From: an uncultured Maribacter sp.
GTDB lineage: Bacteria > Bacteroidota > Bacteroidia > Flavobacteriales > Flavobacteriaceae
DNA length: 64,000 nt
Assembly (NCBI RefSeq): GCF_947495965.1
Contig: NZ_CANMBB010000008.1
Span: 1-64,000 of the forward strand
Direction: 5' to 3'
The position numbers and the translations under genes were made by a program. The notes beneath the pieces are model-generated. The model did not search any database, had not been told where the DNA came from, and worked only from the letters and a program-made list of their open reading frames with translations. Below, in pieces: positions 5,458-39,139 of this stretch (positions are counted from its first letter, which is position 1; the number at the start of each line of letters is the position of its first letter).

Positions 5458-7395
5458 TTATGATTGTACAATTTTTAATGTGGACTTATCTGATTTTTCG
5501 TTTTTATTCTTTTCATCTAATTCACATAATTCTGAGTTATTAGAAACATATTCAGGAACTATTTTTTTCATTAATTTAACAGTATTACCATTAAAAAACA
5601 TATTTGTAATACATAGTTCATCAATACGAGAACGAACATCTACATAGTTTAAGTCTCTAACTTTACTAATTTTTATTTTTTTATGATAGGTTGGCAAAGT
5701 ATTTTCCCCATTAGCTAATAACTCTTCATATAATTTTTCTCCAGGTCTAAGCCCTGTAATTTTTATATCAATATCATCTGGGTAGTTTAACCCAGATAGT
5801 TTTATCATGTTTTTAGCTAAGTCAAAAATCTTAACAGATTCTCCCATATCAAAAATAAATATCTCTCCTCCTTCTCCCATTGCACCTGCTTCTAATACAA
5901 GTTGAGAAGCTTCCGGAATGGTCATAAAAAATCTGGTAACATCTTTATGCGTTAAAGTTAAAGGCCCTCCTTTTTCAATTTGTTTTCTAAATAAAGGAAT
6001 TACAGAACCATTAGAGCCTAAAACATTTCCAAACCTAGTAGTTATAAATTTAGTTTTCTTTTGTTGCTGCATACAACTTATATACATTTCTGCAATACGC
6101 TTACTTGCTCCCATTACATTAGTTGGGTTTACGGCTTTATCTGTTGATACAAACACAAATTTTTCTACATTATGAGCAATAGATAAATCTGCTACCGTTT
6201 TTGTTCCTGCAATATTAATTTTTATTGCCTCATAAGAATTATACTCCATTAAAGGAACATGTTTATAGGCCGCAGCATGAAAAACCATATTAGGTTTATG
6301 TTCGTCAAAAATATTGTTTAGTCTATTTTTATCTCTAACATCACTAACAATTGGCACAAAATTATGAAATCCGTTTTGTTTTAATTCTTGTTGCAAGTCG
6401 TACAAAGCAGATTCTGCTTGATCTATAATTATCAAAGATTTGTAATCGTAAGTACATATTTGTCTTACAATTTCACTTCCTATAGAGCCTGCGCCTCCTG
6501 TAACTAAAACGGTTTTACCTTTTAGTTCATTTTCAATTTTACTGTTTTTAATCGAAATAGGTGCTCTATCTAATAAATCCTCTATCTGTACTTGTTTAAT
6601 TTGAGAAACTTTTAGTTCTCCATTTATCCAATCATCAACTGGAGGTACAATTTTTACTTGCACAGGAAAATCTACTAAACCTTCTACTAGTTTTCGTAAT
6701 TTTTTTGATTTAATATTTTGCATAGAAAAAATTACCTCATTGATATTTTTTTCTAGTATAAAATTCTCTGTTAACTCTTTTTCATTATAAACTTTAACCC
6801 CATTTATATGCTTACCAGATTTTTTGTCATCTTTATCTACATAACCAACAACCCTTATAATTCCTTTAGAACTACTTGTTAATGCATTATGAGTTAATAT
6901 ACCTGATTCGCCTGCTCCATAAATTATAACATTTTTTGTTACTTTTAAATTCCTAATCATTAAATTGGTATACAAGGATTTAAAAATAAATCTTGACGCT
7001 GTTAAACCAATAAAGCTTAGTAAACTGTGTATAATAATAATAGAAAGTGGAATAGTAAAGTTATTTAAAATTGAAACTTCTCTATTTAGTAATACCATTG
7101 ATATCATTAATATACTAGCCAAGCATATAGCATTAAAAATATTATATATATCGCGTACACCTGTATGCCTTACTACACCTTTATAAGACCCTATAAAAAG
7201 AAAAGAAATAAGCGCTATAATTGTAACAATTGGTAATTGCACTAATAGTTTATTAATCTCAAAATCAAAAGAAAGATTAAAACGTATACAATATGCTAAA
7301 ACAAATGCTATACTAACAGTTAGTACATCTATAACTAAAACTACCCATTTAGATGCAAATTTTGTAACACTATTACTTAAAATATTTTGTATCAT
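5458..7395 (-). CDS. PglF/WbpM/CapD-type UDP-HexNAc 4,6-dehydratase, membrane-bound
   Basis: The 645-residue protein has four N-terminal membrane helices (about 17-37, 52-70, 87-103, 113-131), a first Rossmann domain (NVIIYGAGESG, about 155) and a second SDR domain with VTGGAGSIGSE (about 298-308). The active-site region is STDKAVNPTNVMGASK (417-432); like other long-chain members of this family it has MGASK in place of the usual YxxxK. The family converts UDP-GlcNAc to the 4-keto-6-deoxy sugar at the inner membrane. Its ATG overlaps the stop of the aminotransferase gene by four bases, so the two are translationally coupled and probably act in sequence. Confidence 0.92.
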   Translation of the reverse strand: MIQNILSNSVTKFASKWVVLVIDVLTVSIAFVLAYCIRFNLSFDFEINKLLVQLPIVTIIALISFLFIGSYKGVVRHTGVRDIYNIFNAICLASILMISMVLLNREVSILNNFTIPLSIIIIHSLLSFIGLTASRFIFKSLYTNLMIRNLKVTKNVIIYGAGESGILTHNALTSSSKGIIRVVGYVDKDDKKSGKHINGVKVYNEKELTENFILEKNINEVIFSMQNIKSKKLRKLVEGLVDFPVQVKIVPPVDDWINGELKVSQIKQVQIEDLLDRAPISIKNSKIENELKGKTVLVTGGAGSIGSEIVRQICTYDYKSLIIIDQAESALYDLQQELKQNGFHNFVPIVSDVRDKNRLNNIFDEHKPNMVFHAAAYKHVPLMEYNSYEAIKINIAGTKTVADLSIAHNVEKFVFVSTDKAVNPTNVMGASKRIAEMYISCMQQQKKTKFITTRFGNVLGSNGSVIPLFRKQIEKGGPLTLTHKDVTRFFMTIPEASQLVLEAGAMGEGGEIFIFDMGESVKIFDLAKNMIKLSGLNYPDDIDIKITGLRPGEKLYEELLANGENTLPTYHKKIKISKVRDLNYVDVRSRIDELCITNMFFNGNTVKLMKKIVPEYVSNNSELCELDEKNKNEKSDKSTLKIVQS

Positions 7396-8522
7396 TTTAT
7401 TTGTTTTTTGATTACACTAACCACTCTAGCTAAATCTTTTTTAGTTAAATTAGACCCACTTGGTAAACAAAGTCCCCTTTCAAATAGGGTATTAGATGTA
7501 CCATTGGTATAGCTTGGGTTATTAATAAAAATTGGTTGTAAATGCATTGGTTTCCACAATGGCCTAGATTCTATATTTACTTTTAAAAGTGCTAATCTAA
7601 TTTTCTCTCTTATTTCAAATGATGGAGTTAAAATGCAACTTAACCATCTATTTGAAAAATAGTTTTCTGGCTCATCTAAGAATTCTATTTCGCTAAATTT
7701 TTGTAAGTTTTCATAATAAAATTGATAATTAGCTCTTCTGGAAGCTACGCGACTATCTAGCACTTGCATTTGTCCTCGTCCTATTCCTGCTAGTATATTA
7801 CTCATCCTATAATTAAATCCAATACTGGAATGCTCATAATGTGGCTCATTATCTCTTGCTTGTGTTGCTAAGAAAACAGCTTTTTCTTTAATATTACTTT
7901 TCTTTGTAATTAATGCTCCTCCTCCAGATGTTGTAATAATTTTGTTCCCGTTAAAAGAAAATATTCCAATATCTCCAAAACTACCACACTTTACACCATA
8001 AAAAGAACTTCCTAAAGCTTCAGCACTATCTTCTACAATTGGGATATTAAATTCTTTAGCAACTTCATTTATTTCTCTCACCTTATATGGCATGCCGTAC
8101 AAATGAACAGCGACAATTGCTTTTGGCTTTTTTCCTTTTAATATTCTATCTTCTATTGCTTCTCTTAATAATATTGGAGATATATTCCAAGTATCCTCTT
8201 CGCTATCAATAAAAACAGGAGTAGCTCCTAAATAAATAATAGGGTTTGCCGATGCAGAAAAAGTAAAACTTTGACATAAAACTTCGTCTCCCAAAGAAAC
8301 CCCTAAAATTTGTAACGCTAAGTGTATTGCTGCTGTTCCTGAACTTAATGCAGCAACATGTACATTGTTATTTATATATTGTTGTATTGAATTTTCAAAC
8401 TCGTTTACATTAGGCCCTAACGGAGCCACCCAATTTGTATCGAATGCTTCTTTTACATAATACTGCTCTGTATCTCCTATGTGTGGAGATGAAAGCCAAA
8501 TTTTCTCTTCTTTTAAACTCAT
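7392..8522 (-). CDS. DegT/DnrJ/EryC1/StrS sugar aminotransferase (PglE-like)
   Basis: A 376-residue PLP enzyme. The internal-aldimine lysine is K194 in SFNGNKIITTSGGGA and the PLP-N1 aspartate region is VEDSAEALGS (D165). The C-terminal SRPLWKPMHLQPIF segment is typical of enzymes aminating UDP-4-keto sugars. Given the coupled PglF-like dehydratase, the likely product is a UDP-4-amino-4,6-dideoxy-HexNAc. The exact stereochemistry cannot be told from sequence. It is the first gene of the leftward run 8522 to 2228. Confidence 0.9.
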   Translation of the reverse strand: MSLKEEKIWLSSPHIGDTEQYYVKEAFDTNWVAPLGPNVNEFENSIQQYINNNVHVAALSSGTAAIHLALQILGVSLGDEVLCQSFTFSASANPIIYLGATPVFIDSEEDTWNISPILLREAIEDRILKGKKPKAIVAVHLYGMPYKVREINEVAKEFNIPIVEDSAEALGSSFYGVKCGSFGDIGIFSFNGNKIITTSGGGALITKKSNIKEKAVFLATQARDNEPHYEHSSIGFNYRMSNILAGIGRGQMQVLDSRVASRRANYQFYYENLQKFSEIEFLDEPENYFSNRWLSCILTPSFEIREKIRLALLKVNIESRPLWKPMHLQPIFINNPSYTNGTSNTLFERGLCLPSGSNLTKKDLARVVSVIKKQIK

Positions 8523-10537: not shown

Positions 10538-10541
10538 AAAT

Positions 10542-12897: not shown

Positions 12898-12902
12898 ATC
12901 TA

Positions 12903-23143: not shown

Positions 23144-24406
23144 TTATTTAATCTTCATAAAACAAAGTGCTCTTTTCTTTGTATGTACAGAGTCAAAACA
23201 AACCACATCTCCTTTATTATTCATTCTAGGATGCAAATCACAAGCCCAGTGTTTATATAGTTTAGATTGGTATTTTTTAAACGAATTTAAACTAGCTAAA
23301 AAAGTAGTTTCATTAGTTGCAACATCTACCTTATATAAATTTGCCATACGGTATTTATCTGGGTAAGTATCTGTCACAAAAGAAGCTTCATTTATAAAAC
23401 TCTGGTGTCCATCTGAATTTAATTTTGGATAAGCTACTTTTTGATACTCTTGTAAGGTAGGTTCTTTAAATAATACATGACAATCTACTTCCCCTACTCT
23501 ACAGTATGCAATTATTTGGTTTTTAGAATTCCAGACATAATGCGAAACCATATCATTAGTTGGCGAAATATGACACGTTTTAAGTTCTAAATCATATGTA
23601 AATAATCTTGAGTGCCTATTTGAAGTATCATCTTTATCTACCCAACGGTGTAAACATGAAATATACCTGCCATCTGGAGAAAATAAAGAATGCGTTACAT
23701 AATGGTGACAATTCTCGTATTCCGACGTCATTTCTCCTGTTTCAGAAAGTTCCTTTAAACTAATTAAAAGCTCTTTAGTTCCATTTTCTAAATCTCCTAA
23801 GAAAAGTCCTGTTTGTTCAGGCATTTTCTCTTCATTAAAATGGTCTACCTCAGAATAAGGAGCATAACCGTATCCGGGCATATATTTTTCTAAACGTCCG
23901 TAATTAAATGTAGATGCGTATTTACCATCTTTTGAGGTAGAATCTATTGGATAAGAAATTGTTTTTGTCTCTTTAGTATTTAAATCAAATATTCTAGACA
24001 CTAAAACATCTCCATCAGAGTCATTATACATTACTTTATTTTGCCCTAACCATTGCAGTCTACAACCTTTATGATAATTCCATGCATAAGAAGTACCTAT
24101 AGTTACAAAATTTGTAGCTTTTCCTTCTGCAAATTTAAAATAACCTACCTCTAAACCATCTTCCTTGTTTGGCATTCTAAAAGGAATTAATAATTTATGC
24201 GCCAAAACTAAATTATCTTCAGAATTAAAAGGGGTCAGGTCATGAAAACCATAAAAAAAGCCTTCTTTAACATCTATTGGATAAATAGAATAGTCTTTCT
24301 TATTTGGTAATAAATCAAAAAAGGACTGGTAAGTATTTCTTATAGTTGCTTTTAAACGTGCATTACTCTTTACTGCATCGTATACTATTTTTTCTAATTT
24401 ATTCAT
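23144..24406 (-). CDS. Predicted beta-propeller protein, oligogalacturonate-lyase-like
   Basis: A 420-residue protein with repeated propeller-type blades such as HSLFSPDGRYISCLHRW, and no signal peptide or membrane segment. Histidines recur in blade-end motifs: FYGFHDLTPF (H55), VTHSLFSPDG (H239), SDGHQSF (H334-Q335) and CDLHPRMNNKGDVVCFDSVH (H392, H408). This pattern resembles the seven-bladed oligogalacturonate lyase (PL22) fold, in which His and Gln residues bind Mn. That is my inference. In surface-glycan loci such proteins are often left as hypothetical or loosely called glycosyltransferases. It overlaps the upstream GT4 gene by eight bases, so the two are co-translated. Confidence 0.6.
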   Translation of the reverse strand: MNKLEKIVYDAVKSNARLKATIRNTYQSFFDLLPNKKDYSIYPIDVKEGFFYGFHDLTPFNSEDNLVLAHKLLIPFRMPNKEDGLEVGYFKFAEGKATNFVTIGTSYAWNYHKGCRLQWLGQNKVMYNDSDGDVLVSRIFDLNTKETKTISYPIDSTSKDGKYASTFNYGRLEKYMPGYGYAPYSEVDHFNEEKMPEQTGLFLGDLENGTKELLISLKELSETGEMTSEYENCHHYVTHSLFSPDGRYISCLHRWVDKDDTSNRHSRLFTYDLELKTCHISPTNDMVSHYVWNSKNQIIAYCRVGEVDCHVLFKEPTLQEYQKVAYPKLNSDGHQSFINEASFVTDTYPDKYRMANLYKVDVATNETTFLASLNSFKKYQSKLYKHWACDLHPRMNNKGDVVCFDSVHTKKRALCFMKIK

Positions 24407-25677: not shown

Positions 25678-27486
25678 TTAATTCTTAACTATATAATTTA
25701 TAGAGCTAGGAACTTCGCTATTATAAAAAGTACATTTTTCGAATGTAGTATTAGCATTAAGTTGGTAACCATTATCATTCTTATAACTATGGTCAACTAT
25801 ATTTAATATATTGTTTAAACTACAATTTTTAAAACTAAAACCACTATTAGACCTAGAAATAACGAATAAACTTGGGGCACCTGTAAAGTTACAATTCTCA
25901 AAAAAGTTATTTTGAGACAAATCATCTTTATCATTCCACCAACCTAACTCAATAGCCGCATGGCTCTTATTGTAAATACTTACGTTTTTAAAACTATTTT
26001 GCTGCCCAGCATGTTCAGGGTAAGGATTTTTACCACTATCTAAAAAACCTACACCTACAGCTCCATTTTCAGATTTTACATTTTCAATTAAATTATTTTC
26101 TGCTCCATCCATAACAATAATAGCTCCTCCTTTAAACAAACCGTAAGAGTTATCTCCCGTTACAGTAATATCATGAGCATAACATTCCGTAGCTCCATCA
26201 AAATGAATATCTGTACCATAAACTATACTTTTTTCCATTATATTTTTATTAGACAACTGGTTAAAGCATATTCCATGCCCACTATGGTTACTACTTATTA
26301 ATCTTTTAGCTCTTACATTGGTAAACAAATTATTTTTTCCTGTAGTATGAAAATAATAATCTTGTGGATTACCATTATCAATATCACTTGTAGACTCGTT
26401 ATTAGCAACCAAAGTATTTTGAGATACATTTATTGTAAACCCTCTAAAAGTCATATTGTAAGCAGCACAATTTTTTATCACATTATTTTGAGGCATTGCA
26501 TTACCATAATCATCTCCCCATATAAGAAAAGCAGTACCTTGTAAATCACTATTACTTCCTCCTTGCCCTTCAATATCTGAAAACCAACCTAAATTTGCTA
26601 CAGTAATATTTTCAAAAACAGAAGAGTCAACATTCCTCATTGAAAAGCCTCTTCTATAATATTGTATTTGCATATTTCTAAAAACGAAACCTTCTTCACC
26701 TCCATCATTATAGAATAAGGACTCATTGTCAATATATTTTGGAGCTTTACTAGTGTCCCCAGAAAAAGTAGGCATCAACGAAGCGTCTAATTGGTGAGTA
26801 CCATCCGCAGCCTGAGGTCTTTTTTTATAATCCTCCCAAGATACAGTTGAAAACTCAGAAGCATTAATATCGCCAGGAGTATCTTTATAACCTATCCAAT
26901 AACAAGGGCGAGATGGGTTACAATCAAGATTAGACAAATCATAATGTGCACCGCCCTTAGCGCTTGAAAAACCACCATACTCTCCTGACTTTATGTAAAA
27001 AACATCTCCTGATTGAACAAAATCTTTTCTAAACGCGGTATTAATATCTATAGGGCTAGATTCTTTTAAACCTGTATTACTAGATTTACCATCCACAGAA
27101 ACATAAAACACTCTGTTTGGATTACTTGGTATTAAAGGAATATTATTACCTACACTAATTTTAAAAGGAGCTAAATTATCATTAGACTCTGGCTCATTAA
27201 CAATAGGTTCTGCATCATTTGAGGAATCTAACTGAGGTTCTGGAGCAATTTGTGGAGTATCTTCAACTAAAGATGAAGTATCTGTATCCTCTAAGCCGCT
27301 ATTATCCGAAATCATTACATCATAAATTTCAAGAAATATATTACTTGTTTCATCTGACAAAACAGATTCTATTAATAAATCAGAATCTTTAGCACAAGAG
27401 GTTAAACACAAAGAAGAAGAAATTGTAGAAATAAAAACAAACAATAGCATCATATTGTTTTTGTTTAATTTGTGGGGTAAATTCAT
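25678..27486 (-). CDS. Parallel beta-helix lipoprotein
   Basis: A 602-residue secreted lipoprotein. The signal peptide ends in lipobox LTSC with C31. A Ser/Glu/Asp-rich linker follows (about 35-120), then VFYVSVDGKSSNTGLKESSP and repeated right-handed beta-helix coils rich in NN, GN and isoleucine/valine steps (about 125-590). This fold is typical of polysaccharide lyases and epimerases, but I see no decisive catalytic set. It would sit on an outer or inner membrane surface and could trim, epimerise or bind the polysaccharide made here. It stands 142 bases upstream of the leftward GT4 gene. Confidence 0.75.
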   Translation of the reverse strand: MNLPHKLNKNNMMLLFVFISTISSSLCLTSCAKDSDLLIESVLSDETSNIFLEIYDVMISDNSGLEDTDTSSLVEDTPQIAPEPQLDSSNDAEPIVNEPESNDNLAPFKISVGNNIPLIPSNPNRVFYVSVDGKSSNTGLKESSPIDINTAFRKDFVQSGDVFYIKSGEYGGFSSAKGGAHYDLSNLDCNPSRPCYWIGYKDTPGDINASEFSTVSWEDYKKRPQAADGTHQLDASLMPTFSGDTSKAPKYIDNESLFYNDGGEEGFVFRNMQIQYYRRGFSMRNVDSSVFENITVANLGWFSDIEGQGGSNSDLQGTAFLIWGDDYGNAMPQNNVIKNCAAYNMTFRGFTINVSQNTLVANNESTSDIDNGNPQDYYFHTTGKNNLFTNVRAKRLISSNHSGHGICFNQLSNKNIMEKSIVYGTDIHFDGATECYAHDITVTGDNSYGLFKGGAIIVMDGAENNLIENVKSENGAVGVGFLDSGKNPYPEHAGQQNSFKNVSIYNKSHAAIELGWWNDKDDLSQNNFFENCNFTGAPSLFVISRSNSGFSFKNCSLNNILNIVDHSYKNDNGYQLNANTTFEKCTFYNSEVPSSINYIVKN

Positions 27487-29971: not shown

Positions 29972-30574
29972 ATGGTATATAAATTATTTAAAGCTATAGT
30001 AGATTTTTTTGTTGCCTTAATAGCATTATTAATACTTTCGCCTGTATTTATTAGTATTACCATATTCCTATACTTTGCTAATCAAGGAAAACCTTTTTTC
30101 TATCAAGAAAGACCTGGTAAAAACGGAAAAGTTTTTAAAATAATAAAATACAAATCTATGAACGACAAAAAGGATGAATCTGGTAAACTACTACCAGATT
30201 TTAAAAGACTTACTACTGTCGGTAAATTTGTTAGAAAGTATTCTTTAGATGAAATTCCTCAATTACTAAATGTACTAAAAGGAGATATGAGTATTGTTGG
30301 GCCTAGACCTCTATTAGTATCGTATTTGCCACTTTACAATGAAAATCAAAGAAAAAGACACAATGTAAAACCAGGTATTACTGGGCTTGCACAAGTAAAC
30401 GGAAGAAATGCTTTGTCTTGGGATCAAAAATTTAAGTACGATATAAAGTATGTTGAAAATATTAGTTTTATGCTTGACGTAAAAATATTACTTAAAACCG
30501 TGAAAAAAGTATTTATTTCAGACGGTATAAATGCTAATGACAATACAACTATGAAAGAGTTTACTGGTAATTAA
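29972..30574 (+). CDS. PglC-like initiating phosphoglycosyl transferase
   Basis: A 200-residue monotopic phosphoglycosyl transferase, the short form without the WcaJ N-terminal domain. A re-entrant hydrophobic helix (about 8-35) is followed by FFYQERPGKNGKVFKIIKYK and the catalytic dyad D93-E94 in KYSLDEIPQLLNVLKGDMS, then VGPRPLL and PGITGLAQVNGRN. It moves a sugar-1-phosphate from a UDP-sugar to undecaprenyl phosphate and so starts each repeat unit. Size and dyad position equal Campylobacter PglC, which uses UDP-diNAcBac; with a PglF/PglE-like pair in this locus, a related amino sugar is a fair guess. Confidence 0.92.
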   Translation: MVYKLFKAIVDFFVALIALLILSPVFISITIFLYFANQGKPFFYQERPGKNGKVFKIIKYKSMNDKKDESGKLLPDFKRLTTVGKFVRKYSLDEIPQLLNVLKGDMSIVGPRPLLVSYLPLYNENQRKRHNVKPGITGLAQVNGRNALSWDQKFKYDIKYVENISFMLDVKILLKTVKKVFISDGINANDNTTMKEFTGN

Positions 30575-30706: not shown

Positions 30707-32764
30707 ATGAAAGTTACATCAACAACCCTTAGAAAAAACTCCAATATAAATACTATATTTTGCGATTTTTTTGACACCTTAATACATAGAAACGTGCATC
30801 CAAACTATGTATATAAATTATGGAGTAAATATTTAATTCAAGAATTAGGCCTTAATATTAATATTAATGATTTATATAAGACAAGGTTACAATCTTTAGC
30901 TTATATAAGTAACAAACAACAGATTAGAAAAGTTGAAGTTTTATATAAAGATGTTATAGCAGAAGTATATAACAGATTTATAAATAATAATATTTTTCCA
31001 AACAAAATTTCATTCGAAACATTCCTTAAGTTAAGTAGTGAAGCTGATTATATTGCCGAAATAAGTGTACAGTTTACAAACAAAAATCTAATAGAGGAAT
31101 TAAGAGAATTAAAAAGTCAAGGAAAAAATATTTATTTAGTTTCTGACTTTTATTTATCTAAAACAATATTTATGAAAATCTTAAAATATCATTCTATTGA
31201 TGATATTTTTAATGATGTTTTTATTTCTTGTGCTGTAGGGCATAGTAAGGAAAACGGTTCTATATATAAATATGTACTAGATAAAACTAATTGTACTTCA
31301 GAATCTGTATTAATGATAGGAGACAATAAAAAAAGTGATGTTATAAATGCCTCTAAGTATCATATTAAAAGTATTTACCTAAAACACAGTAAACATAAGC
31401 GAAGAAACAAGCTTAATGCTATTGGAAACGATAAAAATGATTTTAATCTTATTTTAAAAGATATTGAAAAAACATGTAAAAAAAGTGATTTCCCTTATAG
31501 TCAATACATTATTTTCTTTACTATTTTTATTGAAAGATTATATAAAGAAGCCAGTAAGAAGCAAATAAAAAATATATTTTTCTTAGCAAGAGAAGGTCAT
31601 TATTTAAAAAAAATGTTTGATTATTACCAAGCAAATAACTCTCTTTTTGAGAGCCAAAAAATAAATACCCATTACTTTAAAATATCAAGGCAATCTGCAA
31701 TGCAATTTGCTCTAAAAAAATTAGATGAAGAGAAATTTAAATACTTAGAAGAAAGGTACGGAAATATGTCTTTAAGGATGTTTTTAGAAAACTTTCTATT
31801 CCCAGATTCTAAAATAGCGGAAATTGTAGAAGAGACTAAGCTAGATGAAAATGAAATTATAAAACAGTTTGTAACTTCTGAATCTATGACAGTTTTAAGA
31901 AGTAGTAATTGCTTTAAAAAATATTACGAAGAAAATAGAGTTGCTCAAAAAGAATATTTTAATGGCTATTTTAACTCTTTTGATGTAGATATTAAAAAAG
32001 AAGGTATAACGTTAGTAGATGTTGGTTGGGGAGGCAGTATGCAGCAATGGCTTAACGAATACTTTGACAAAACCGTAAGTGTTACTGGCTATTATATAGG
32101 TTTAAAAAAAATATATGATATTACAGACCAAACAAAAAGGTTTGGAATTAACTTTTCTATATACCCAAATGAGTCTTACACGGATACTTTATTAATGGCT
32201 AACTCCCAATTATATGAGCAATTACTTTCTGCTCCACATGGTAGTACCCTAGGGTATACCTCTAAGGAAAATGACTATACTATTGAGTATCATCAAGAAA
32301 ATGAAAAATATGTTTATGACAATTATTTTTCAGCCACTCAAGACTACATGTTTTCTATATATAAATTATTTTTAGAAAAACTCAAACCTATTACGTATGA
32401 GGATACTATTGTTCAAAAAAATATGACAGACTTAACAATTAGAACAGGATTATTCTCTAGAAATAAAGATTTAAAGTTTCTAAAAGATGTAACACAAGGT
32501 TTCTTCCAAAATATTGGAAACACTGAGGTAGGTATTGTTTACAAAACAGAAAAAATAGGAATGTCAAAAGCACAACTAATAAAAACCTTTTTTTTGTACC
32601 CAGAAAAAACGTTCCGATATTTAGTAAAGTTAAAACCAATGTTATACAACACAAAAAGTAAAGTAGTAGCTTGGTTATTTACCCCTTTTGTTAATGGTGT
32701 TTATTATTATATTAAATTTAATAAATACATAAGAGATTCGTTTTTTAATAAAGAACTTATATAA
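30707..32764 (+). CDS. Large HAD-domain protein (COG5610-like)
   Basis: A 685-residue protein. Residues about 15-225 form a HAD domain: motif I is CDFFDTL (D20, T24), motif II VSDFYLS (S146), motif IV GDNKKSD (D206, D211). The usual second acid at +2 of motif I is F22, as in dehalogenase-like members, so it may not be an ordinary phosphatase. The next 450 residues are an uncharacterised domain with FLAREGHYLKKMFDYY (292-307) and VDVGWGGSMQQWL (437-449). Proteins of this build are found in surface-polysaccharide loci with unproven function. It heads the ATP-grasp/HAD/GNAT cassette. Confidence 0.75.
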   Translation: MKVTSTTLRKNSNINTIFCDFFDTLIHRNVHPNYVYKLWSKYLIQELGLNININDLYKTRLQSLAYISNKQQIRKVEVLYKDVIAEVYNRFINNNIFPNKISFETFLKLSSEADYIAEISVQFTNKNLIEELRELKSQGKNIYLVSDFYLSKTIFMKILKYHSIDDIFNDVFISCAVGHSKENGSIYKYVLDKTNCTSESVLMIGDNKKSDVINASKYHIKSIYLKHSKHKRRNKLNAIGNDKNDFNLILKDIEKTCKKSDFPYSQYIIFFTIFIERLYKEASKKQIKNIFFLAREGHYLKKMFDYYQANNSLFESQKINTHYFKISRQSAMQFALKKLDEEKFKYLEERYGNMSLRMFLENFLFPDSKIAEIVEETKLDENEIIKQFVTSESMTVLRSSNCFKKYYEENRVAQKEYFNGYFNSFDVDIKKEGITLVDVGWGGSMQQWLNEYFDKTVSVTGYYIGLKKIYDITDQTKRFGINFSIYPNESYTDTLLMANSQLYEQLLSAPHGSTLGYTSKENDYTIEYHQENEKYVYDNYFSATQDYMFSIYKLFLEKLKPITYEDTIVQKNMTDLTIRTGLFSRNKDLKFLKDVTQGFFQNIGNTEVGIVYKTEKIGMSKAQLIKTFFLYPEKTFRYLVKLKPMLYNTKSKVVAWLFTPFVNGVYYYIKFNKYIRDSFFNKELI

Positions 32765-32836
32765 CAAAACAATATTTTAAAAGATAGTAATGTTATATAG
32801 TATCTTAAATAGTAATTTAGTCATTAAAACTAATAA

Positions 32837-33805
32837 ATGAACATTCTAGTAACATCTGCAGGAAGACGAGTATCTTTAGTTAGAGCATTTCAAAAAGAAT
32901 TAAAATATTTATACCCAACTGCTAAAGTTTTTGCAGCAGATGCTAACCCAAAGGAATCTGCAGCATGCCACGCTGCTGATAGTTTTTTTTTAGTTCCAAG
33001 ATTATCTGAGGATAATTATATTGAACACTTAATTGCTAAATGTAAAGAGCACCATATAAAACTTATTATACCAACTATAGATACTGAATTACTTTTGCTT
33101 GCAAAAGAAGAAGATAAATTTATAAAGAACAATATTACAGTTCTTATTTCTTCCGCTTCATTTATTCAAAAATGCAGAGATAAAAGATCTATTCATGACT
33201 TTTTTAAATCTAAAAAAATAAATATAGCAGAAGAATATAGTAAAACAGACTATAAATTACCATTATTTATTAAGCCTTATGATGGTAGCAGAAGTATAGA
33301 CACGTATTTAATTAATACAAAAGAAGACTTTACAGATTATCATTTTGAAAACGATAAATTAATGTTTCTTGAATATGTAGACCACAAACTACATGACGAA
33401 TTTACATGTGATTTATATTATGACAAAAAAAATACTCTAAAATGTATTGTACCTAGAAAAAGAGTTGAAGTAAGAGATGGAGAAGTTAATAAAGGAGTAA
33501 CTGCAAATAACGAACTAGTTTCCTACATAAAAGAAAGACTAAATCATATAGATGGTGCTATAGGTTGTTTAACTGCTCAGTTTTTCTTACACAAAACTAA
33601 TGGTAGCATTTATGGTATTGAAATAAACCCAAGATTTGGTGGTGGGTACCCATTATCCTATTTAGCTGGTGCAAACTTTCCAAAATGGATAATTCAAGAA
33701 TATTTTCAAGATATAAAAATTGAAGAAAACTTTAACTGTTGGGAAGATCAGTTAATGATGTTGAGATATGATGACGAAATTTTAGTACATGGATATAAAG
33801 GTTGA
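32837..33805 (+). CDS. ATP-grasp ligase (CarB/PylC-like)
   Basis: A 322-residue ATP-grasp protein. The N-terminal pre-ATP-grasp Rossmann part starts NILVTSAGRRVSLVRAFQKE. The ATP-binding lysine is in LFIKPYDGSRSIDTY, and the metal/phosphate residues are in IYGIEINPRFGGGYPLSYL. Such enzymes join a carboxylate to an amine or another nucleophile with ATP. The substrate is unknown. Its 3' end overlaps the following HAD gene by 17 bases, which indicates a fixed functional pair. Confidence 0.85.
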   Translation: MNILVTSAGRRVSLVRAFQKELKYLYPTAKVFAADANPKESAACHAADSFFLVPRLSEDNYIEHLIAKCKEHHIKLIIPTIDTELLLLAKEEDKFIKNNITVLISSASFIQKCRDKRSIHDFFKSKKINIAEEYSKTDYKLPLFIKPYDGSRSIDTYLINTKEDFTDYHFENDKLMFLEYVDHKLHDEFTCDLYYDKKNTLKCIVPRKRVEVRDGEVNKGVTANNELVSYIKERLNHIDGAIGCLTAQFFLHKTNGSIYGIEINPRFGGGYPLSYLAGANFPKWIIQEYFQDIKIEENFNCWEDQLMMLRYDDEILVHGYKG

Positions 33806-34445
33806 TAAAAACACTGTAGTTGTGTTTGATTTAGATGACACGCTATATAACGAAATTGACTATCTAAAATCTGCTTATATTTTTATAGCTAAAAAATTAG
33901 ACTCCAATAATTGGAAACAACTTTATAGCTTTATGTTTTCTTTATACAGGAATAAAGAAAATGTTTTTGATATTATTTCAGAAAAATATTCCATATCAAA
34001 AATAGAATTAATTGAAAGCTACAGAAATCATAAACCAAACATCACTTTATTTGATGGAGTCTTAAATGTTTTTAAAGCCATAATTAACAAAGGCGCCAAA
34101 ATTGGGATTATTACAGATGGCAGAAATATTGCCCAAACCAATAAAATTGAAGCCTTAAAAATAAAGCAATTTATAGATTTTATATGCATTTCTGAAAACA
34201 TAGGTACAGAAAAACCTAGTGAAAATAATTTTAAATTTATAGAAGATAATTTACCAGCCAAAAAGTATTATTACTTAGGAGACAACCTTAAAAAAGATTT
34301 TATTGCTCCAAATACATTAGGATGGAAAACTATAGCTCTAATAGATAATGGTTTAAATATTCATTCCAACTCTTTCAAGTATTTAACCCCCCCCCATTTA
34401 CCAGATAATTTTATACTATCCATTAAAGAGTTAAACGTAGTATAA
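33789..34445 (+). CDS. HAD-family hydrolase with a nine-C tract
   Basis: A 218-residue HAD phosphatase. Motif I is VVVFDLDDTLYNE with both acids, motif II GIITDGRN, lysine in GTEKPSEN and motif IV YYLGDNLKKDF. It resembles HAD hydrolases paired with ATP-grasp enzymes in glycan loci, so it could dephosphorylate an intermediate of that ligase. Codons 200-203 contain nine consecutive C in an otherwise AT-rich gene. A slip of one base either way would rewrite the last about 15 residues. Confidence 0.85.
   Translation: MDIKVDKNTVVVFDLDDTLYNEIDYLKSAYIFIAKKLDSNNWKQLYSFMFSLYRNKENVFDIISEKYSISKIELIESYRNHKPNITLFDGVLNVFKAIINKGAKIGIITDGRNIAQTNKIEALKIKQFIDFICISENIGTEKPSENNFKFIEDNLPAKKYYYLGDNLKKDFIAPNTLGWKTIALIDNGLNIHSNSFKYLTPPHLPDNFILSIKELNVV
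34387..34395 (+). repeat. Homopolymeric C9 tract inside a HAD gene
   Basis: Nine C in a row encode part of T200-P-P-H203. No other run of this kind was noticed in the window. With ten C the frame ends after about five further codons; with eight C it reads 14 different residues and stops. Confidence 0.9.
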
Positions 34446-34456
34446 AAAAACTCTTT
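34425..34456 (+). terminator. Possible terminator or attenuator after the second HAD gene
   Basis: AAAGAGTT (34425-34432) pairs with AACTCTTT (34449-34456), followed by TTAATTCATTT. The stem overlaps the stop codon. The 16-base loop makes it weak. Confidence 0.35.
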
Positions 34457-34489
34457 TAATTCATTTATTAATTACTTAAAATAAATTAA

Positions 34490-35527
34490 TTGTCAATAGA
34501 GATTATTACATATAAGAAAGAATGGGATGCACTGGTTACGCAATTCGAAAATTCCGATTTTTATCATACTTTCGATTATCATGAGTTATCAAAAAAAGAA
34601 GATGAAACTCCGATAATAATAAAGTATGTAGAAAATAATACTCTAATTGCTATACCTTTATTAGTACGCAAAATTAAAGACACTCCTTATTCAGATGCAA
34701 CTTCTGTATATGGCTATGCAGGTCCTTTATCTTTAAATATTCCTCATGATTTTGACAATACAAATTTCAGAAAGGAGTTTCATGAATTATTAGCACTACA
34801 AAATATTATTTCTATATTTTCTAGACTTAATCCATTTATATTACACCAAAAAAAGATTTTAAACAACTTGGGTGAAATATGCTACTCTGGTAAAATTATA
34901 TTTATAGATACCTCGCAAGAGTTAGATGTTCAAAAGGCACAGTACAAAAGAAGATATAAAACCTATATAAATAAATCTAGAAAATTATGTGCAGTCCAAA
35001 CTGCTAAGAGTAAAGAAGAAATAAAAGAGTTTATAAATATATACAATGAAAACATGGTTAGGGTTCATGCCAAAAACAACTACTTTTTTACCGAAGAATA
35101 TTTTTTTGACTTTATAAAATCTAACTCTTTTAAAACTGAAATTTTATTAGCAAAATGTACTGAAACCAATGCATTTATAGCTGGAGCTATGTTTGTTAAA
35201 AAAAATAATATAGTACAATATCATTTATCCGGAACCAAAAATAATTGCTTACAGTTAAATGCTATTAAATTACTTATAGATGAGATGAGGATAGCTTCTA
35301 CAATGCAAGGTTATGATTTTTACAATCTTGGTGGAGGGGTTAACAGCAAGAATGATAATCTTTTTTATTTCAAATCTGGTTTTTCTGAAACTACTAAAGA
35401 TTTTACCCTTTGGAAATATATTGTTAATTCAGAAATTTACAATGAATTGGTATTTAAAATAAAACAAACAAAAGCAAATGAAACTTCTTTAAATACTAAT
35501 GAATACTTTCCAAGTTATAGATCATAA
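34490..35527 (+). CDS. FemAB-like GNAT acyltransferase, TTG start
   Basis: A 345-residue protein with two GNAT-like lobes of the Acetyltransf_6/FemAB type. Visible landmarks are TSVYGYAGPLSL in the first lobe and QYHLSGTKNNCLQLNA then YDFYNLGGGVNSKNDNLFYF in the second. The frame is closed by TAA immediately before the TTG at 34490 and no ATG follows for a long way, so TTG is the start. FemAB-fold enzymes transfer aminoacyl groups from tRNA or acyl groups from CoA; which applies here is unknown. It follows the ATP-grasp/HAD pair and precedes two more distant relatives. Confidence 0.78.
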   Translation: MSIEIITYKKEWDALVTQFENSDFYHTFDYHELSKKEDETPIIIKYVENNTLIAIPLLVRKIKDTPYSDATSVYGYAGPLSLNIPHDFDNTNFRKEFHELLALQNIISIFSRLNPFILHQKKILNNLGEICYSGKIIFIDTSQELDVQKAQYKRRYKTYINKSRKLCAVQTAKSKEEIKEFINIYNENMVRVHAKNNYFFTEEYFFDFIKSNSFKTEILLAKCTETNAFIAGAMFVKKNNIVQYHLSGTKNNCLQLNAIKLLIDEMRIASTMQGYDFYNLGGGVNSKNDNLFYFKSGFSETTKDFTLWKYIVNSEIYNELVFKIKQTKANETSLNTNEYFPSYRS

Positions 35528-35553
35528 ATACTGTAAATAACAATTAACTTACT

Positions 35554-36789
35554 ATGAAAAGTAACCCTTTTTTAACGGATACATTTAAAGAAACTTGGGT
35601 TAAACATTTTAATTCTCAAAAAAAGGTTTATCATTTTCCTGAATTTAATTATGTCAATTTTGTAGAAAGTAAAAAAGGGATATCTACCATTTATAGCAAT
35701 GTTGGAAAAACACATACTAAAGGAATTTATTATACTGTAAACAAACAAAATACTACTCCTAACAACAACAATGTACTTTTAATTTATGATGTTCCAAAAT
35801 ATTATAATATAGACGTACAAAATTCATTAAAAGTAATTTCCTCTAGACAATATCCTGGCTTTTTAATTCATCTTTCAGAACATAAAGATCTAAATTCCTA
35901 TTTACTTTCTAAGTTTAAAAAAAGTAGTAGATATAAGCTTAAAAAGTATAAAAAAAGATTAGAAAGTTGTTTTAACATATCAACTAAGTCCTATTTTGGA
36001 GAAATAGAAAAAAATGAATATGACTATATTTTTGATTGTTTTAGAAAATTACTTGAGAAAAGATTTGAGGATAAGCAAACCGTAAACAACAATTTAGACA
36101 CAAAAGAATGGAATTTTTATTTTGAAGTAGCTTACCAACTAATTTTAGAAAAAAAAGCCTGTTTATTTGTAATTTATAATAATGAAAAACCCATTACTAT
36201 AACTTTAAATTACGTTTCTGATTCTATAATTTATGACGCCATAACTGTTTTTGATATTGATTATTCAAAATTTCATTTAGGGTCTGTTAACATAATGAAC
36301 TTAATTGAATGGGGAATTACAAAGGGATATAAAACGTTAGATTTTTCTAAGGGTTACTTTGATTATAAAACAAGATGGGCAGATTTAGAATATGATTTTG
36401 AATATCATATATATTACAATCCAAAATCATTAATAGCTACTTGTGTAGCTAAAACTCTAAAATATAAGTTAGACTTAAAACAATTTCTTAGAGAGCATAA
36501 AGTAAATGATAAGTTGCATGAAATAACTTATAAATTAAAAAACAGACAAGAGAAAAAAGAAGTAAATTATGAGCTTATTTTACTAGAAAATAATTCTTCA
36601 AAAGAATATAACTCACTTGTAAATATAAATAATACGCAAAATCAAATTTTAATTCCTGCTATTTATGATTTTCTTTATCTTACTCTTGAAAACATAAACG
36701 CTATTTCTGTATATAACACAAAAAACGAACCTAATAAATATCTAATTAAAGGCCAAAATAAAAGTGCAGAAATAAAAATTAACATCTAA
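35554..36789 (+). CDS. FemAB/CelD-like GNAT protein with C-terminal extension
   Basis: A 411-residue protein related to the next gene. Shared blocks are the N-terminal F-K-E-x-W-x-x-H-F, SKFKKSSRYKLKKYKKRLE and the C-terminal LDFSKGYFDYKTRWADLEY with the FEYHIYYN that follows. The latter resembles the end of the CelD/BioF2-type Acetyltransf_6 fold. Residues from about 315 onward form an extra region that the paralogue lacks and that I do not recognise. It is cytoplasmic. The substrate is unknown; transfer of an acyl or aminoacyl group to a sugar is an inference from fold and location. Confidence 0.7.
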   Translation: MKSNPFLTDTFKETWVKHFNSQKKVYHFPEFNYVNFVESKKGISTIYSNVGKTHTKGIYYTVNKQNTTPNNNNVLLIYDVPKYYNIDVQNSLKVISSRQYPGFLIHLSEHKDLNSYLLSKFKKSSRYKLKKYKKRLESCFNISTKSYFGEIEKNEYDYIFDCFRKLLEKRFEDKQTVNNNLDTKEWNFYFEVAYQLILEKKACLFVIYNNEKPITITLNYVSDSIIYDAITVFDIDYSKFHLGSVNIMNLIEWGITKGYKTLDFSKGYFDYKTRWADLEYDFEYHIYYNPKSLIATCVAKTLKYKLDLKQFLREHKVNDKLHEITYKLKNRQEKKEVNYELILLENNSSKEYNSLVNINNTQNQILIPAIYDFLYLTLENINAISVYNTKNEPNKYLIKGQNKSAEIKINI

Positions 36790-36800
36790 TTAAACGTAAA

Positions 36801-37808
36801 GTGAAAAACCACCCATACAATTCTTATATTTTTAAAGAAAAATGGATTAATCATTTTACAACCCCTGAAAATGTTACTGAATTTAATTATTTATTAGGCC
36901 CTAGTTTTTTAAAGAAAAAAAATAGTGAAACTTATTATAATACTACAAGTAGTTTTACTCTTCAAAATTATTACAAAATAAATAGGGCTTCGTCTTCTGA
37001 AGGGTTAAAAGGAAAAACTATATTAATATTTAATGTTCCTGATTATTTTAAAATAAACACAAATACAGCCTCTACAAATTTAAAAATTGTACCCGTTAGA
37101 GAATATATTGGCTATTTAATAGATTTAGATAAGGTAGATTCTTTTAAATCTTATTTATCATCAAGGTTTAATTCTAAAAAAAAGTCGCAAATAAAAGGGT
37201 ATTCTAAAAAATTAGAAAAAAATTTTAATATTAAATATAACATGTACTTTGGCGAAATAACCAAAGAAAAATATGATTATATAATGGAATGTTTTTATGA
37301 CCTTTCTATAAAAAGTTTTAAGAAAAAAGGACTTAAAAACAGAAAGCTAATTCCTAAAAATTTTAACTTCACAAAAGATATAATTTATAACTTAATTGTT
37401 AAAAAACAAGCTTGTATTTTTGTTGTTTACAAAGATGCTAAACCTATTGGTATTTCTGTAAATTATAACTCTAACAATATACTTTTTGGAGACTCAACAG
37501 TATATGACACTTTATATTCTAAATATAATGTAGGAACCATTATGCTTATGAAACAATTAGAATGGTGCTTTAGCAATAGAATAAGTACTTTTGATTTTTC
37601 TAAAGGATACTTTCCTTATAAAAAAACATGGTGTAATACTTCTTATCATTTTGAGCATCATATTTTATATGACACAAGTTCTTTTAAAGCTACATTAACA
37701 GCTTATAAAAACATATATTTCCTTAAAATAAAACAGTTCCTTAGAGAACATCCTCTAAGGAACTATTTAAAAAAAATAAAAAAACACCTTTTATTAAGAA
37801 AAGTATAA
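36801..37808 (+). CDS. FemAB/CelD-like GNAT protein, paralogue of the preceding gene, GTG start
   Basis: A 335-residue relative of the 411-residue protein upstream, aligning from NSYIFKEKWINHF to TFDFSKGYFPYKKTW and FEHHILYDTSSFKAT, but without the long C-terminal extension. The start is a GTG eleven bases after the upstream stop. The two genes look like an old tandem duplication that has diverged. A strong hairpin at 37735-37764 lies within its last codons and is probably a terminator for the opposite strand. Confidence 0.7.
   Translation: MKNHPYNSYIFKEKWINHFTTPENVTEFNYLLGPSFLKKKNSETYYNTTSSFTLQNYYKINRASSSEGLKGKTILIFNVPDYFKINTNTASTNLKIVPVREYIGYLIDLDKVDSFKSYLSSRFNSKKKSQIKGYSKKLEKNFNIKYNMYFGEITKEKYDYIMECFYDLSIKSFKKKGLKNRKLIPKNFNFTKDIIYNLIVKKQACIFVVYKDAKPIGISVNYNSNNILFGDSTVYDTLYSKYNVGTIMLMKQLEWCFSNRISTFDFSKGYFPYKKTWCNTSYHFEHHILYDTSSFKATLTAYKNIYFLKIKQFLREHPLRNYLKKIKKHLLLRKV
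37735..37764 (-). terminator. Terminator for the OmpA-family gene, inside the opposite CDS
   Basis: AGTTCCTTAGAG (37735-37746) pairs perfectly with CTCTAAGGAACT (37753-37764) over a 6-base loop. On the minus strand the stem is followed by GTTTTATTTT, as in an intrinsic terminator; the plus side has an A-run. It lies 70 bases beyond the OmpA-family stop codon and within the last codons of the rightward GNAT gene. Confidence 0.65.
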
Positions 37809-37833: not shown

Positions 37834-39015
37834 TTAAAACTCCAAAACAATAAACTCCGATCTTCTGTTAATCTTATGCTTACTTTCTGGACAATAAACA
37901 CCATCTCCACAATCATTTAACAACTTTTCTTCGCCATACGCTTTTGTAATAAGTCTTGAAGAGTCTACACCTTGCTTAATTAAATACTCTTTAGTAGTTT
38001 CTACACGTCTTTGAGACAGCTCTTTATTATAGCCCGAAGAACCTCTAGAATCTGTATGCGATGCAATTGTTAAATTTAAATCTGGAGTTTCCTTTAATAA
38101 GGCTGCTAAGGACTCTAATACTTTTCTAGAGTTTCTATTAATATAAGAAGAATTTAAACTAAAATACACCAAACCATAATCCTTTATTTCACCTTGTAAT
38201 TTAGCTATACGTTCTCTTTTAGCCTGTTCTATTTTTTCTTTTTCAAGAGCAGCTAATCTTGCTTGTTCTTTTTCCTTTGCTAATTTTTCTGCCAACAGCA
38301 TTTCTTCTTTAATTCTATTTGCAGTAGCTATAGAATCATTCACTCGTTGTTTCTCTGTTTCTTGAGCCTCTATTAAGGCTAACTTTTCTTCTCCTTTTTT
38401 AGATAAACCCTTCTCTATACCAAATTGATATACAACTCCAACAGAGTGTTGTAAATGGTTAGTTGCTTCGTTAGAACCCATAGTCCACTTTCCTGAAGAA
38501 TTAAAATCTAAACCTACCTTATCAGAAAACCAGGTTCTAAAACCAACAACAGCATTATAGGTACCCCTACCAACATTATTAGCCTCTGTATATCCTATAC
38601 CACCACCTACATAAGGATCAAACCAAGCTGTTTCTCCAAACAATTTATTTAAATCATAAGAAACTCGAGCATCAAAGCCTAAATAATCAGTTACATCTGT
38701 TACTTTTATCCCATCAACTACTTTACCTTCTTTATATTTGTTGTAAGTTGCTATTGCCTCTATCCCTACACCACTCTTAAAATAACGACCTATACTTAAT
38801 CTATTTGGAAAAGTTAATCCATTCCACTCTTCTTTAAAATTAAAAAGACCATCTGCAACATCACCAGAATCATCTACAAAATTGTATCCTAAGCCTAGCA
38901 TCCACGAACTTTTTACAATACTATCTTTCTTTGTTAATTTTAATTCTTCTTGCGCAAAAAATGGTATACTTAAAAACAGCGTAGCAATTAATATATAATG
39001 TTTAATATTTTTCAT
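37834..39015 (-). CDS. OmpA-family outer-membrane protein
   Basis: With the start at 39015 the 393-residue protein begins MKNIKHYILIATLFLSIPFFAQ, a clean signal peptide. An upstream in-frame ATG at 39093 would add 26 unlikely hydrophobic residues. An N-terminal beta-barrel-like domain (about 20-190) is followed by a charged coiled coil rich in E, K, A and R (about 205-275) and a C-terminal OmpA peptidoglycan-binding domain with LTIASHTDSRGSSGYNKELS and QRRVETTKEYLIKQG. It links the outer membrane to peptidoglycan. It is not obviously part of the polysaccharide locus. Confidence 0.9.
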   Translation of the reverse strand: MKNIKHYILIATLFLSIPFFAQEELKLTKKDSIVKSSWMLGLGYNFVDDSGDVADGLFNFKEEWNGLTFPNRLSIGRYFKSGVGIEAIATYNKYKEGKVVDGIKVTDVTDYLGFDARVSYDLNKLFGETAWFDPYVGGGIGYTEANNVGRGTYNAVVGFRTWFSDKVGLDFNSSGKWTMGSNEATNHLQHSVGVVYQFGIEKGLSKKGEEKLALIEAQETEKQRVNDSIATANRIKEEMLLAEKLAKEKEQARLAALEKEKIEQAKRERIAKLQGEIKDYGLVYFSLNSSYINRNSRKVLESLAALLKETPDLNLTIASHTDSRGSSGYNKELSQRRVETTKEYLIKQGVDSSRLITKAYGEEKLLNDCGDGVYCPESKHKINRRSEFIVLEF

Positions 39016-39139
39016 AATTAAGATTTTGGAACTTATTGTCCGTAAAATTATGAAAAGTAAAATGTTAGGTAAAATATAAACTTCTAAAAGCAAGGATATT
39101 CGGTAGAAAGATTAACGGTAATAATAATAGATAAAAAAA

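Follow-up and report, generated by a model that had tools for sequence, protein, structure and literature searches.

Genes of the cassette

The window analyzed here is a 64,000-nucleotide stretch of DNA from an uncultured Maribacter sp. of the Flavobacteriaceae (contig NZ_CANMBB010000008.1, positions 1 to 64,000). Our subject is a cassette of six rightward open reading frames (ORF1 to ORF6) that lies directly 3′ of an ORF for a PglC-like phosphoglycosyl transferase (PGT) at 29972-30574. These genes, including the 17-base overlap (stop codon counted) of ORF2 and ORF3, are present where an earlier annotation made from the letters alone (hereafter the sequence-only reading) had placed them. The remaining gaps from the PglC gene through ORF6 are, in order, 132, 72, 44, 26, and 11 bases. 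Pfam and NCBIfam searches identify HAD domains in ORF1 and ORF3, a PylC-like ATP-grasp protein in ORF2, a FemAB match at threshold in ORF4 (24.1 bits versus 24), and Acetyltransf_6 matches in ORF5 and ORF6. The features relevant to the argument are as follows.

29972..30574, + strand: PglC-like monotopic phosphoglycosyl transferase (PF02397 Bac_transf, 211 bits), the anchor of this locus type
30707..32764, + strand: ORF1, predicted bipartite ribofuranosyltransferase with an N-terminal HAD phosphoribose phosphatase ahead of a glycan phosphoribosyltransferase domain, 685 aa
32837..33805, + strand: ORF2, PylC-like ATP-grasp amide ligase, proposed PglD substitute, 322 aa
33789..34445, + strand: ORF3, HAD phosphatase and partner of ORF2, 218 aa (HAD_2, 69.5 bits)
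34490..35527, + strand: ORF4 (Fem1), FemX-like dual-GNAT transferase, 345 aa, TTG start
35554..36789, + strand: ORF5 (Fem2), FemX/MprF-like dual-GNAT transferase and frequent partner of Fem1, 411 aa
36801..37808, + strand: ORF6 (Fem3), paralogue of ORF5 with a shorter C-terminus, 335 aa, GTG start (Acetyltransf_6, 40 bits)
5458..7395, - strand: PglF-like 4,6-dehydratase (Polysacc_synt_2, PF02719, 405.6 bits), which would start the 2-acetamido-4-amino-2,4,6-trideoxyglucose (Qui2NAc4N) sugar
7392..8522, - strand: PglE-like DegT aminotransferase (PF01041, 307.9 bits), which would add the 4-amine

The six genes look like three modules placed behind PglC (ORF1; ORF2-ORF3; ORF4-ORF6), not one pathway, and the surface glycan to which they contribute is probably decorated with amino-acid-like groups.

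An ATP-grasp protein as a probable substitute for PglD

Our survey was anchored on PglC so that the choice of loci did not depend on the genes under test. Among 198 Flavobacteriaceae genomes, 110 carry PglC at E ≤ 1e-55, including the genome that holds the window, and 106 of the remaining 109 entered the analysis (G numbers denote sampled genomes and L numbers fetched gene loci; the fetched loci of G026/L126 and G058/L132 gave no PglC label, and no locus was fetched for G194). Additional PglC sites in some genomes were left out, and the loci of named records (L032-L039) were dropped from the PglC-locus counts and the PglC tree tests. Identical PglC proteins entered that tree once. The PglD model was built from six sequences of the surveyed loci.

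Within 4 kb of PglC, PglD is found in 48 of these 106 loci and an ATP-grasp gene in 36, whereas both occur in a single locus (L050) and neither in 23 (Fisher p 1.8e-11). That the ATP-grasp protein takes the place of PglD had been overlooked in the sequence-only reading. The 36 ATP-grasp proteins comprise 19 close relatives of ORF2, defined as those with at least 45% identity, and 17 distant ones (26-30% identity) that form a clade of their own. The usual gene order is PglC-PglD-PglE-PglF. An ATP-grasp gene stands in the second position in L146, L152, and L161, with a convergent Fem2 gene before PglE and PglF in the latter two, and the arrangement that includes Fem2 recurs with extra genes in between in L150, L155, L156, and L160. 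Elsewhere, the ATP-grasp/HAD pair is located between PglE/PglF and PglC (L038, L039, L092, and L094). PglF relatives adjoin PglC or PglE in many loci, and PglE is found in the neighborhood PglC-PglE-PglF. The genome that carries the window, which is 99.75% complete, has no NeuD/PglD protein above the cut-off (best score 72.4 bits versus 160.8).

ORF2 and ORF3 are a conserved pair. Among 38 loci with a close ATP-grasp gene, a HAD gene is adjacent on the same strand in 36, and the gap between the two is -14 nucleotides (stop codon excluded) in 24 of the 37 loci that have the HAD gene. These counts, like those for the linkage of ORF1 and Fem genes and for the ATP-grasp tree, omit two duplicates, namely L032, a near-copy of the window, and L033, which is the same place as L089. 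The exceptions to adjacency are L096, where no HAD ORF is labeled, and L110, where it lies 3.4 kb away. No relative of ORF3 lies within 4 kb of PglC in any of the 17 loci with a distant ATP-grasp gene. The HAD motifs of ORF3 (DxDxT, T/S, K, and an acidic fourth motif) are intact, and the residues D14-x-D16-D17-T18, T109-D110-G111, K142, and D165-N166...D170 are conserved in at least 95% of 40 sequences, the window included; the ATP-grasp motifs are likewise conserved. The N-terminal domain of ORF2 matches PF21360 at 91.4 bits (curated threshold 27), and the protein scores 377.8 bits against NF009405, slightly below the equivalog cut-off of 390. Its sole sequence match in the Protein Data Bank (PDB) at 0.01 is 2pn1 (E 6.6e-41), which is labeled there as 'Carbamoylphosphate synthase large subunit'. 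We know of no test of that labeled function. In a tree of 63 ATP-grasp rows, the window protein falls in a supported set of 23, 20 of which have PglC within 5 kb.

We infer amide ligation followed by phosphate removal because the pair replaces PglD, because the ligase has a HAD partner, and because there are precedents in PglB/PglB2 and in Cj1438C/Cj1435 (see below). The ATP-grasp/HAD pair therefore probably substitutes for PglD, with the ATP-grasp protein forming an amide between a phosphorylated acid and the 4-amine of the sugar made by PglE and PglF, and the HAD enzyme then removing the phosphate. Amide chemistry on a sugar, as originally suggested for this cassette, remains the best reading.

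ORF1 resembles a ribofuranosyltransferase

In a phmmer search of the PDB, residues 16-555 of ORF1 match 7shg_A, 'Ribofuranosyl transferase', at E 8.9e-68, and this is the sole strong match. The alignment pairs the motif DFFDT of ORF1 with DIFDT and places an N-terminal HAD phosphoribose phosphatase (PRP) before a glycan phosphoribosyltransferase (gPRT) domain; about 130 C-terminal residues lie outside it. Enzymes of this class are described as a HAD phosphoribose phosphatase combined with a gPRT that uses phosphoribosyl pyrophosphate (PRPP) (PMC11127046), and they are reported for Campylobacter Cj1432 and Haemophilus influenzae type b (PMC12096443). ORF1 thus appears to be a gPRT/PRP ribofuranosyltransferase homologue of the kind already described, and ribose addition is its predicted activity. 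The earlier label, a COG5610-type HAD fusion, was right for the HAD part, whereas the match to 7SHG rules out a generic, activating HAD fusion.

Of the 38 loci with a close ATP-grasp gene, 9 contain a relative of ORF1 (>150 bits), compared with none of the 103 without one (Fisher 3.5e-6, for 141 fetched loci that are related and not independent). Because these relatives are confined to close-ATP-grasp loci, ORF1 and ORF2-ORF3 seem to be linked.

ORF4 to ORF6 resemble FemX and MprF

The annotation of the last three genes as FemAB/GNAT-like transferases was correct as to fold. When a profile of the ORF4 family (38 members) is searched against the PDB, the five sequences found at E ≤ 0.1 are all FemX (best E 4.9e-11). 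Lysine 295 of ORF4, present in all 38 members, aligns with FemX K305, which is described as a catalytic residue (PMC12945691). Homology to FemX together with this lysine would place ORF4 in the tRNA-dependent FemABX branch. In NCBIfam at 0.001, 31 of the 38 Fem1 members match NF047883 (FemX) and 27 match TIGR03019, all far under the curated cut-offs; the best NF047883 score in the family is 35.4 bits, versus an equivalog cut-off of 500.

For ORF5, the argument comes from a predicted model (pLDDT 81.1, pTM 0.77). Its 18 best VIA matches (Z 15.4-13.6) are FemX, FemA, MprF and other aminoacyl-phosphatidylglycerol synthases, and Sbb17/Sba18. The double GNAT fold of the model is thus closest to tRNA-dependent enzymes, which suggests the same branch for ORF5; ORF6 is judged by its 39% identity to ORF5 alone. 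A profile comparison of ORF4 with ORF5/ORF6 is not significant (probability 0.2%), and ORF4 is therefore not a close paralogue of the other two. We do not equate K272 of ORF5 with FemX K305, as doing so would depend on that alignment. The most basic stretch in both the Fem1 and the Fem2/3 families is the first helix of the second GNAT domain. Fold and residues together suggest that ORF4 to ORF6 group with FemX and MprF among proteins of the GNAT fold and might use aminoacyl-tRNA.

Perhaps these proteins are instead acyltransferases that depend on acyl-CoA or an acyl carrier and add fatty-acid-like or hydroxyacyl R-groups with no tRNA involved. ORF5 and ORF6 match Acetyltransf_6, the fold is also matched by single-domain CoA acetyltransferases, and an R-group of Flavobacterium psychrophilum, 3,5-dihydroxyhexanoyl, is predicted in PMC6519341 to come from an acyl carrier protein (ACP) route. 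We consider this account unlikely, given that the CoA motif [QR]xxGx[GA] is found in just 1 of 38 Fem1 proteins (at residue 327) and 3 of 22 Fem2/3 proteins (at residues 72-102, two of them at the same place), that all Fem1 proteins keep the lysine matching FemX K305 in the alignment, and that the top structural matches are tRNA-dependent enzymes.

The TIGR03019 matches also bring to mind VimA, which is described as placing serine or glycine on the linking sugar of Porphyromonas and Tannerella (PMC7468200) and, like 27 of the 38 Fem1 proteins, matches that family. ORF4 might then set a free-amine amino acid on a linking sugar that PorU, the sortase of the type IX secretion system (T9SS), uses to anchor secreted proteins. 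Prevotella intermedia is reported to use an N-alanyl deoxyhexose whose biosynthesis PMC11969387 states to be unknown. This possibility seems remote to us, because Fem1 is present in merely 51 of 199 Flavobacteriaceae genomes (E ≤ 0.001, own genome included), because it adjoins O-unit initiation genes, and because in one search of the window's own draft genome the best T9SS sortase score was 39.3 bits versus a cut-off of 420, a result on which the T9SS linking sugar was set aside as the leading interpretation.

Modules that combine in different ways

Fem1 is an add-on, since it is found with PglD, with an ATP-grasp gene, or with neither. Among the 23 loci of the PglC tree set that carry Fem1, 8 have PglD, 5 a close ATP-grasp gene, 1 a distant one, 1 both, and 8 none. 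Over all 106 PglC loci, a close ATP-grasp gene is equally frequent with Fem1 (5/23) and without it (14/83, p 0.55), and PglD is present in 9 of 23 loci with Fem1 and 39 of 83 without (p 0.64). By genome, the outcome is different: close ATP-grasp and Fem1 genes co-occur in 19 genomes versus 6.5 expected, and in 8 of the 19 they lie no more than 3 kb apart (own genome included in both counts). The two are thus associated among whole genomes and independent among PglC loci. The proposal of one joint six-gene pathway in the sequence-only reading is not supported, both because of this independence among PglC loci and because ORF1 is of a ribose-adding type. Fem2 (at least 40% identity) is the next gene after Fem1 in 16 of 42 cases, and among 114 PglC loci it accompanies Fem1 in 16 of 31, versus 1 of 83 that lack Fem1. 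In L050 (by Pfam) and L057 (by similarity), Fem1 is fused to PglD.

The arrangement exceeds chance, in that its gene orders are seen again in other genera. A set of gPRT, ATP-grasp, HAD, Fem1, and two further Fem genes is found in L032, L035, L036, L046, L060, and L210, among which only the near-copy L032, an uncultured Maribacter record with all six genes at 91-98% identity, keeps the order of the window. A second sampled genome of the same genus (G152) gave no match to ORF4, ORF2, or PglC at the thresholds used, and therefore the locus varies within the genus. Among 296 Bacteroidota genomes, Fem1 occurs at E ≤ 1e-10 in 16 (own included) and the ATP-grasp gene at E ≤ 1e-60 in 10. Two loci from other families have the orders PglC-sulfotransferase-ATPgrasp(52%)-HAD(43%)-Fem1(31%)-PglE-PglF (L203) and ATPgrasp(52%)-HAD(39%)-PglC-Fem1(38%)-PglE (L204). 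Also outside the family are L207 (PglC-sulfotransferase-Fem1-PglE-PglF) and L202 (PglC-ATPgrasp-HAD). Though few, these four loci tie the cassette to the Qui2NAc4N pathway; none has a labeled PglD above 80 bits.

It could be argued that there is no joint function at all, and that the hypervariable end of the locus collects unrelated decoration genes, each acting on a different glycan residue. The modules that precede Fem1 do vary widely among genera, and Fem1 is independent of both PglD and the close ATP-grasp gene among PglC loci. We nevertheless regard this as very unlikely, considering the fixed adjacency of the ATP-grasp and HAD genes (36/38), the statistical links between Fem1 and Fem2 and between gPRT and the close ATP-grasp gene, the joint presence of ATP-grasp, HAD, and Fem1 in two other families, and the PglD-Fem1 fusions.

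Several other gene arrangements were seen around Fem1. It is fused behind an NAD_binding_9 (FAD-NAD binding) domain in L051:7979-10636 (by Pfam) and, by similarity, in L055:8373-11039, L069, and others; in L052:6964-10656 and L066, this domain and two Fem domains share a single protein of 1231-1236 aa. PglD adjoins the NAD_binding_9-Fem1 fusion in L051, L055, L052, and L066. Loci L054, L055, L051, L058, and L069 have 5 to 8 Fem-like transferase genes, mostly consecutive (8 in L054 and 7 in L055). The run PglC - pyridoxal phosphate-dependent decarboxylase - distant ATP-grasp - Fem1 - methyltransferase - Fem2 - formyltransferase in L053:6635-13444 is likely a different acyl module. A TauD-type dioxygenase and an aldo/keto reductase come right after PglC in L043:7963-9500 and L172, and in L043 they precede Fem1, as AsnB and an AMP-binding ligase do in L042. 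A formyltransferase and a PIG-L deacetylase are located between HAD and Fem1 in L061:10544-12298, with relatives of both in L075. The sulfotransferase between PglC and ATP-grasp or Fem1 is at L203:7668-8642 and L207:8035-9057. MBOAT genes are often near Fem1, and they are present in 16 of 31 PglC loci with Fem1 versus 8 of 83 without (114 PglC loci).

Other features of the window

At the 3′ end of the cassette is a leftward ORF (37834-39093) whose translation reads as OmpA-type. The window also encodes, on the - strand, an MBOAT O-acyltransferase with a 346-aa partner that has no Pfam match (11857-14336), and, within the polysaccharide locus, a 420-aa protein (23144-24406) and a 602-aa protein that reads as lipoprotein-like (25678-27486), each with no Pfam match at 1e-4. 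A promoter scan was uninformative (58 sites versus 67.6 in shuffles), and the terminator-like sites (10 versus 2.8 expected) are all within ORFs.

Discussion

A proposed modular decoration end of the O-unit locus

PglF and PglE are known to make UDP-2-acetamido-4-amino-2,4,6-trideoxyglucose, and the members of these families in the window would supply this sugar. In the stead of PglD, ORF2 would activate a phosphorylated carboxylic acid and couple it to the 4-amine of the sugar. The acid is most simply 3-phosphoglycerate or O-phosphoserine, although this choice is a guess. ORF3 would strip the phosphate to leave a glyceramide- or seryl-like group, and PglC would transfer the sugar onto undecaprenyl phosphate. 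ORF4, and then ORF5 and ORF6, might attach at least one further aminoacyl group to the lipid- or nucleotide-linked sugar, at either an amine or a hydroxyl, with aminoacyl-tRNA as the probable donor. ORF1 would attach β-ribofuranose from PRPP and then dephosphorylate it. The analysis directly supports the gene content, the families, the active-site residues, the replacement of PglD in gene order, and the ORF1/ORF2-ORF3 and ORF4/ORF5 linkages. As a whole, this modular decoration end of an O-unit locus, whose substrates and step order we infer, is a tentative proposal that we judge to fall somewhat short of an even chance.

It is tempting to speculate further that the enzymes form a ladder like that of FemX, FemA, and FemB. 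The ATP-grasp/HAD pair would set a seryl or similar group on the 4-amine, and ORF4 to ORF6 would extend it stepwise by aminoacyl-tRNA to give a short peptide on the lipid- or nucleotide-linked O-unit sugar. The Bacteroidota loci with many Fem genes (up to eight in L054) might then produce peptide-bearing O-antigens whose residues are tailored by swap-in modules such as the decarboxylase, the TauD-type dioxygenase, and the formyl- and methyltransferases. This extension is distinctly unlikely.

A number of observations weigh against the modular proposal. The ATP-grasp/PglD state can be explained on the PglC tree by only 9 changes, versus a shuffled mean of 27.6 (300 shuffles, 20-34). Because the genomes are related and the state changes just 9 times, there are few independent observations and the Fisher p overstates the exclusion of PglD; an independent-pairs test, for which 2 pairs were usable, lacked power. 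We therefore make no strong statistical claim for this exclusion. Adaptation of PglC enzymes to the type of acyl group, which the authors of PMC6519341 suggest for WfpB in F. psychrophilum, would be consistent with the clustering as well. The 23 of 106 PglC loci with neither PglD nor an ATP-grasp gene mean that a free 4-amine, or another acylation route, is possible, and the window's own genome does have other hexapeptide transferases. As for the Fem proteins, ORF4 itself has no NF047883 match at 0.001 and scores 20.3 against TIGR03019 versus a cut-off of 260. Its predicted model is poor (pLDDT 59.2), and its Foldseek list is headed by FemX at E 1.1e-4 but with a TM score of 0.27; the sequence profile was used in place of this model as evidence. 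The ORF5 family profile finds no PDB sequence relative at E ≤ 1, and the eighteenth VIA match of the ORF5 model (Z 13.6, 229 residues) is tied by Z with the nineteenth, a single-domain acetyltransferase (Z 13.1, 140 residues). Finally, the ATP-grasp tree holds a separate subclade of 9 rows (L103-L111, SH-aLRT 91) with no PglC within 5 kb, 8 of which adjoin a family 2 glycosyltransferase (GT2), so that the PglC sugar cannot be the acceptor in every case.

This subclade is the best evidence for a different role, in which ORF2 couples a phosphorylated amino alcohol (serinol phosphate, ethanolamine phosphate, or the like) to the carboxyl of a uronic acid added by a GT2, and ORF3 dephosphorylates the product, as described for Cj1438C and Cj1435. 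In the Campylobacter locus, according to PMC11800379 and PMC12096443, Cj1438 combines a GT2 with an ATP-grasp domain, Cj1435 is a HAD protein, and Cj1432 has gPRT/PRP domains. The order GT2-ATPgrasp-HAD recurs among our loci, at times with gPRT next to it (L091 and L093), and two UDP-sugar dehydrogenases are encoded in the window at 9209-11822. However, no TupA-like ATP-grasp family matches ORF2 at E ≤ 0.5, so that identity was rejected. Coupling to a uronic acid would leave the mutual exclusion with PglD unexplained, and in L038, L039, L092, and L094 the pair lies between PglE and PglC with no GT2 label. We consider this role improbable, and continue to favor amidation of the 4-amine by the ATP-grasp/HAD pair.

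Two side observations concern these subjects. In L105, a release-factor gene (RF-1) is located beside the ATP-grasp/HAD cluster, and the other loci of L103-L110 have an ORF of equal size (317-318 aa), matched by size only. In the window's own genome, hexapeptide acyltransferase matches are grouped on the same contig at G000:C8:138419-142411, perhaps in another glycan locus.

If the modular proposal is true, there is an exchangeable acylation slot beside PglC in Bacteroidota, in which an ATP-grasp protein, with or without a HAD partner, substitutes for an acetyltransferase, and a FemX-like family has a connection with surface glycans. N-aminoacyl sugars have been described both among T9SS linking sugars and in certain O-antigens. 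For the N-alanyl deoxyhexose, the families described here are direct candidates for the biosynthesis left unknown in PMC11969387.

Comparison with known systems

A literature search, for which most subscription journals were outside coverage, found no paper on this gene combination among the titles and abstract openings that it covered. Its parts do have counterparts. ORF1 shares the HAD-then-transferase order and the DxFDT motif with the gPRT/PRP enzymes (Klebsiella O4/O7, H. influenzae type b CriT/CrpP, Campylobacter Cj1432, and 7SHG), and it is co-linear with 7SHG across residues 16-555, with no difference seen. FemX (the Weissella UDP-MurNAc-pentapeptide alanyltransferase), MprF, and Sbb17/Sba18 share the double GNAT fold with the ORF5 model, and FemX has the lysine, K305, that aligns in ORF4, with the basic stretch that opens the second domain also in common. 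The acceptors of those enzymes are peptidoglycan, lipid, or antibiotic, whereas gene context suggests an O-unit sugar for ORF4 to ORF6. VimA, of the Wbp/Vim pathway, is related to TIGR03019 like Fem1 and transfers an amino acid to the amine of a sugar; its pathway uses a T9SS sortase, whereas the one search of the window's draft genome gave none above the cut-off.

In F. psychrophilum, the acyl group at the 4-N of Qui2NAc4N is predicted to differ according to strain-variable genes (wfp) of a PglC/PglE/PglF locus (PMC6519341). That organism has PglD-type acyltransferases and an ACP route, whereas the window has an ATP-grasp/HAD pair and FemX-like enzymes. In Campylobacter jejuni HS:2, Cj1438C is described as ligating a phosphorylated compound from which the HAD protein Cj1435 removes the phosphate (PMC11800379). 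The division of labor between ATP-grasp and HAD proteins and the gPRT in the locus are as in the window; however, the C. jejuni ATP-grasp domain is TupA-like and acts on a uronate, whereas ORF2 is PylC-like and located beside PglC.

The precedent for the replacement of PglD comes from Neisseria, where PglB (a PGT with an acetyltransferase) and PglB2 (a PGT with an ATP-grasp domain, for glyceramide) are described as mutually exclusive alleles (PMC11130364, PMC6959607). The dehydratase and aminotransferase steps of the PglB2 pathway are the same as in the system of the window. PglB2 of Neisseria meningitidis, which makes glyceramido-acetamido-trideoxyhexose (GATDH), is a PGT fused to its ATP-grasp domain, whereas in the window the two are separate ORFs, and the ATP-grasp protein has a HAD partner. 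In both cases, an ATP-grasp protein accompanies a PglC-type transferase to the exclusion of the 4-N acetyltransferase, with which it coexists in just 1 of our 106 PglC loci.

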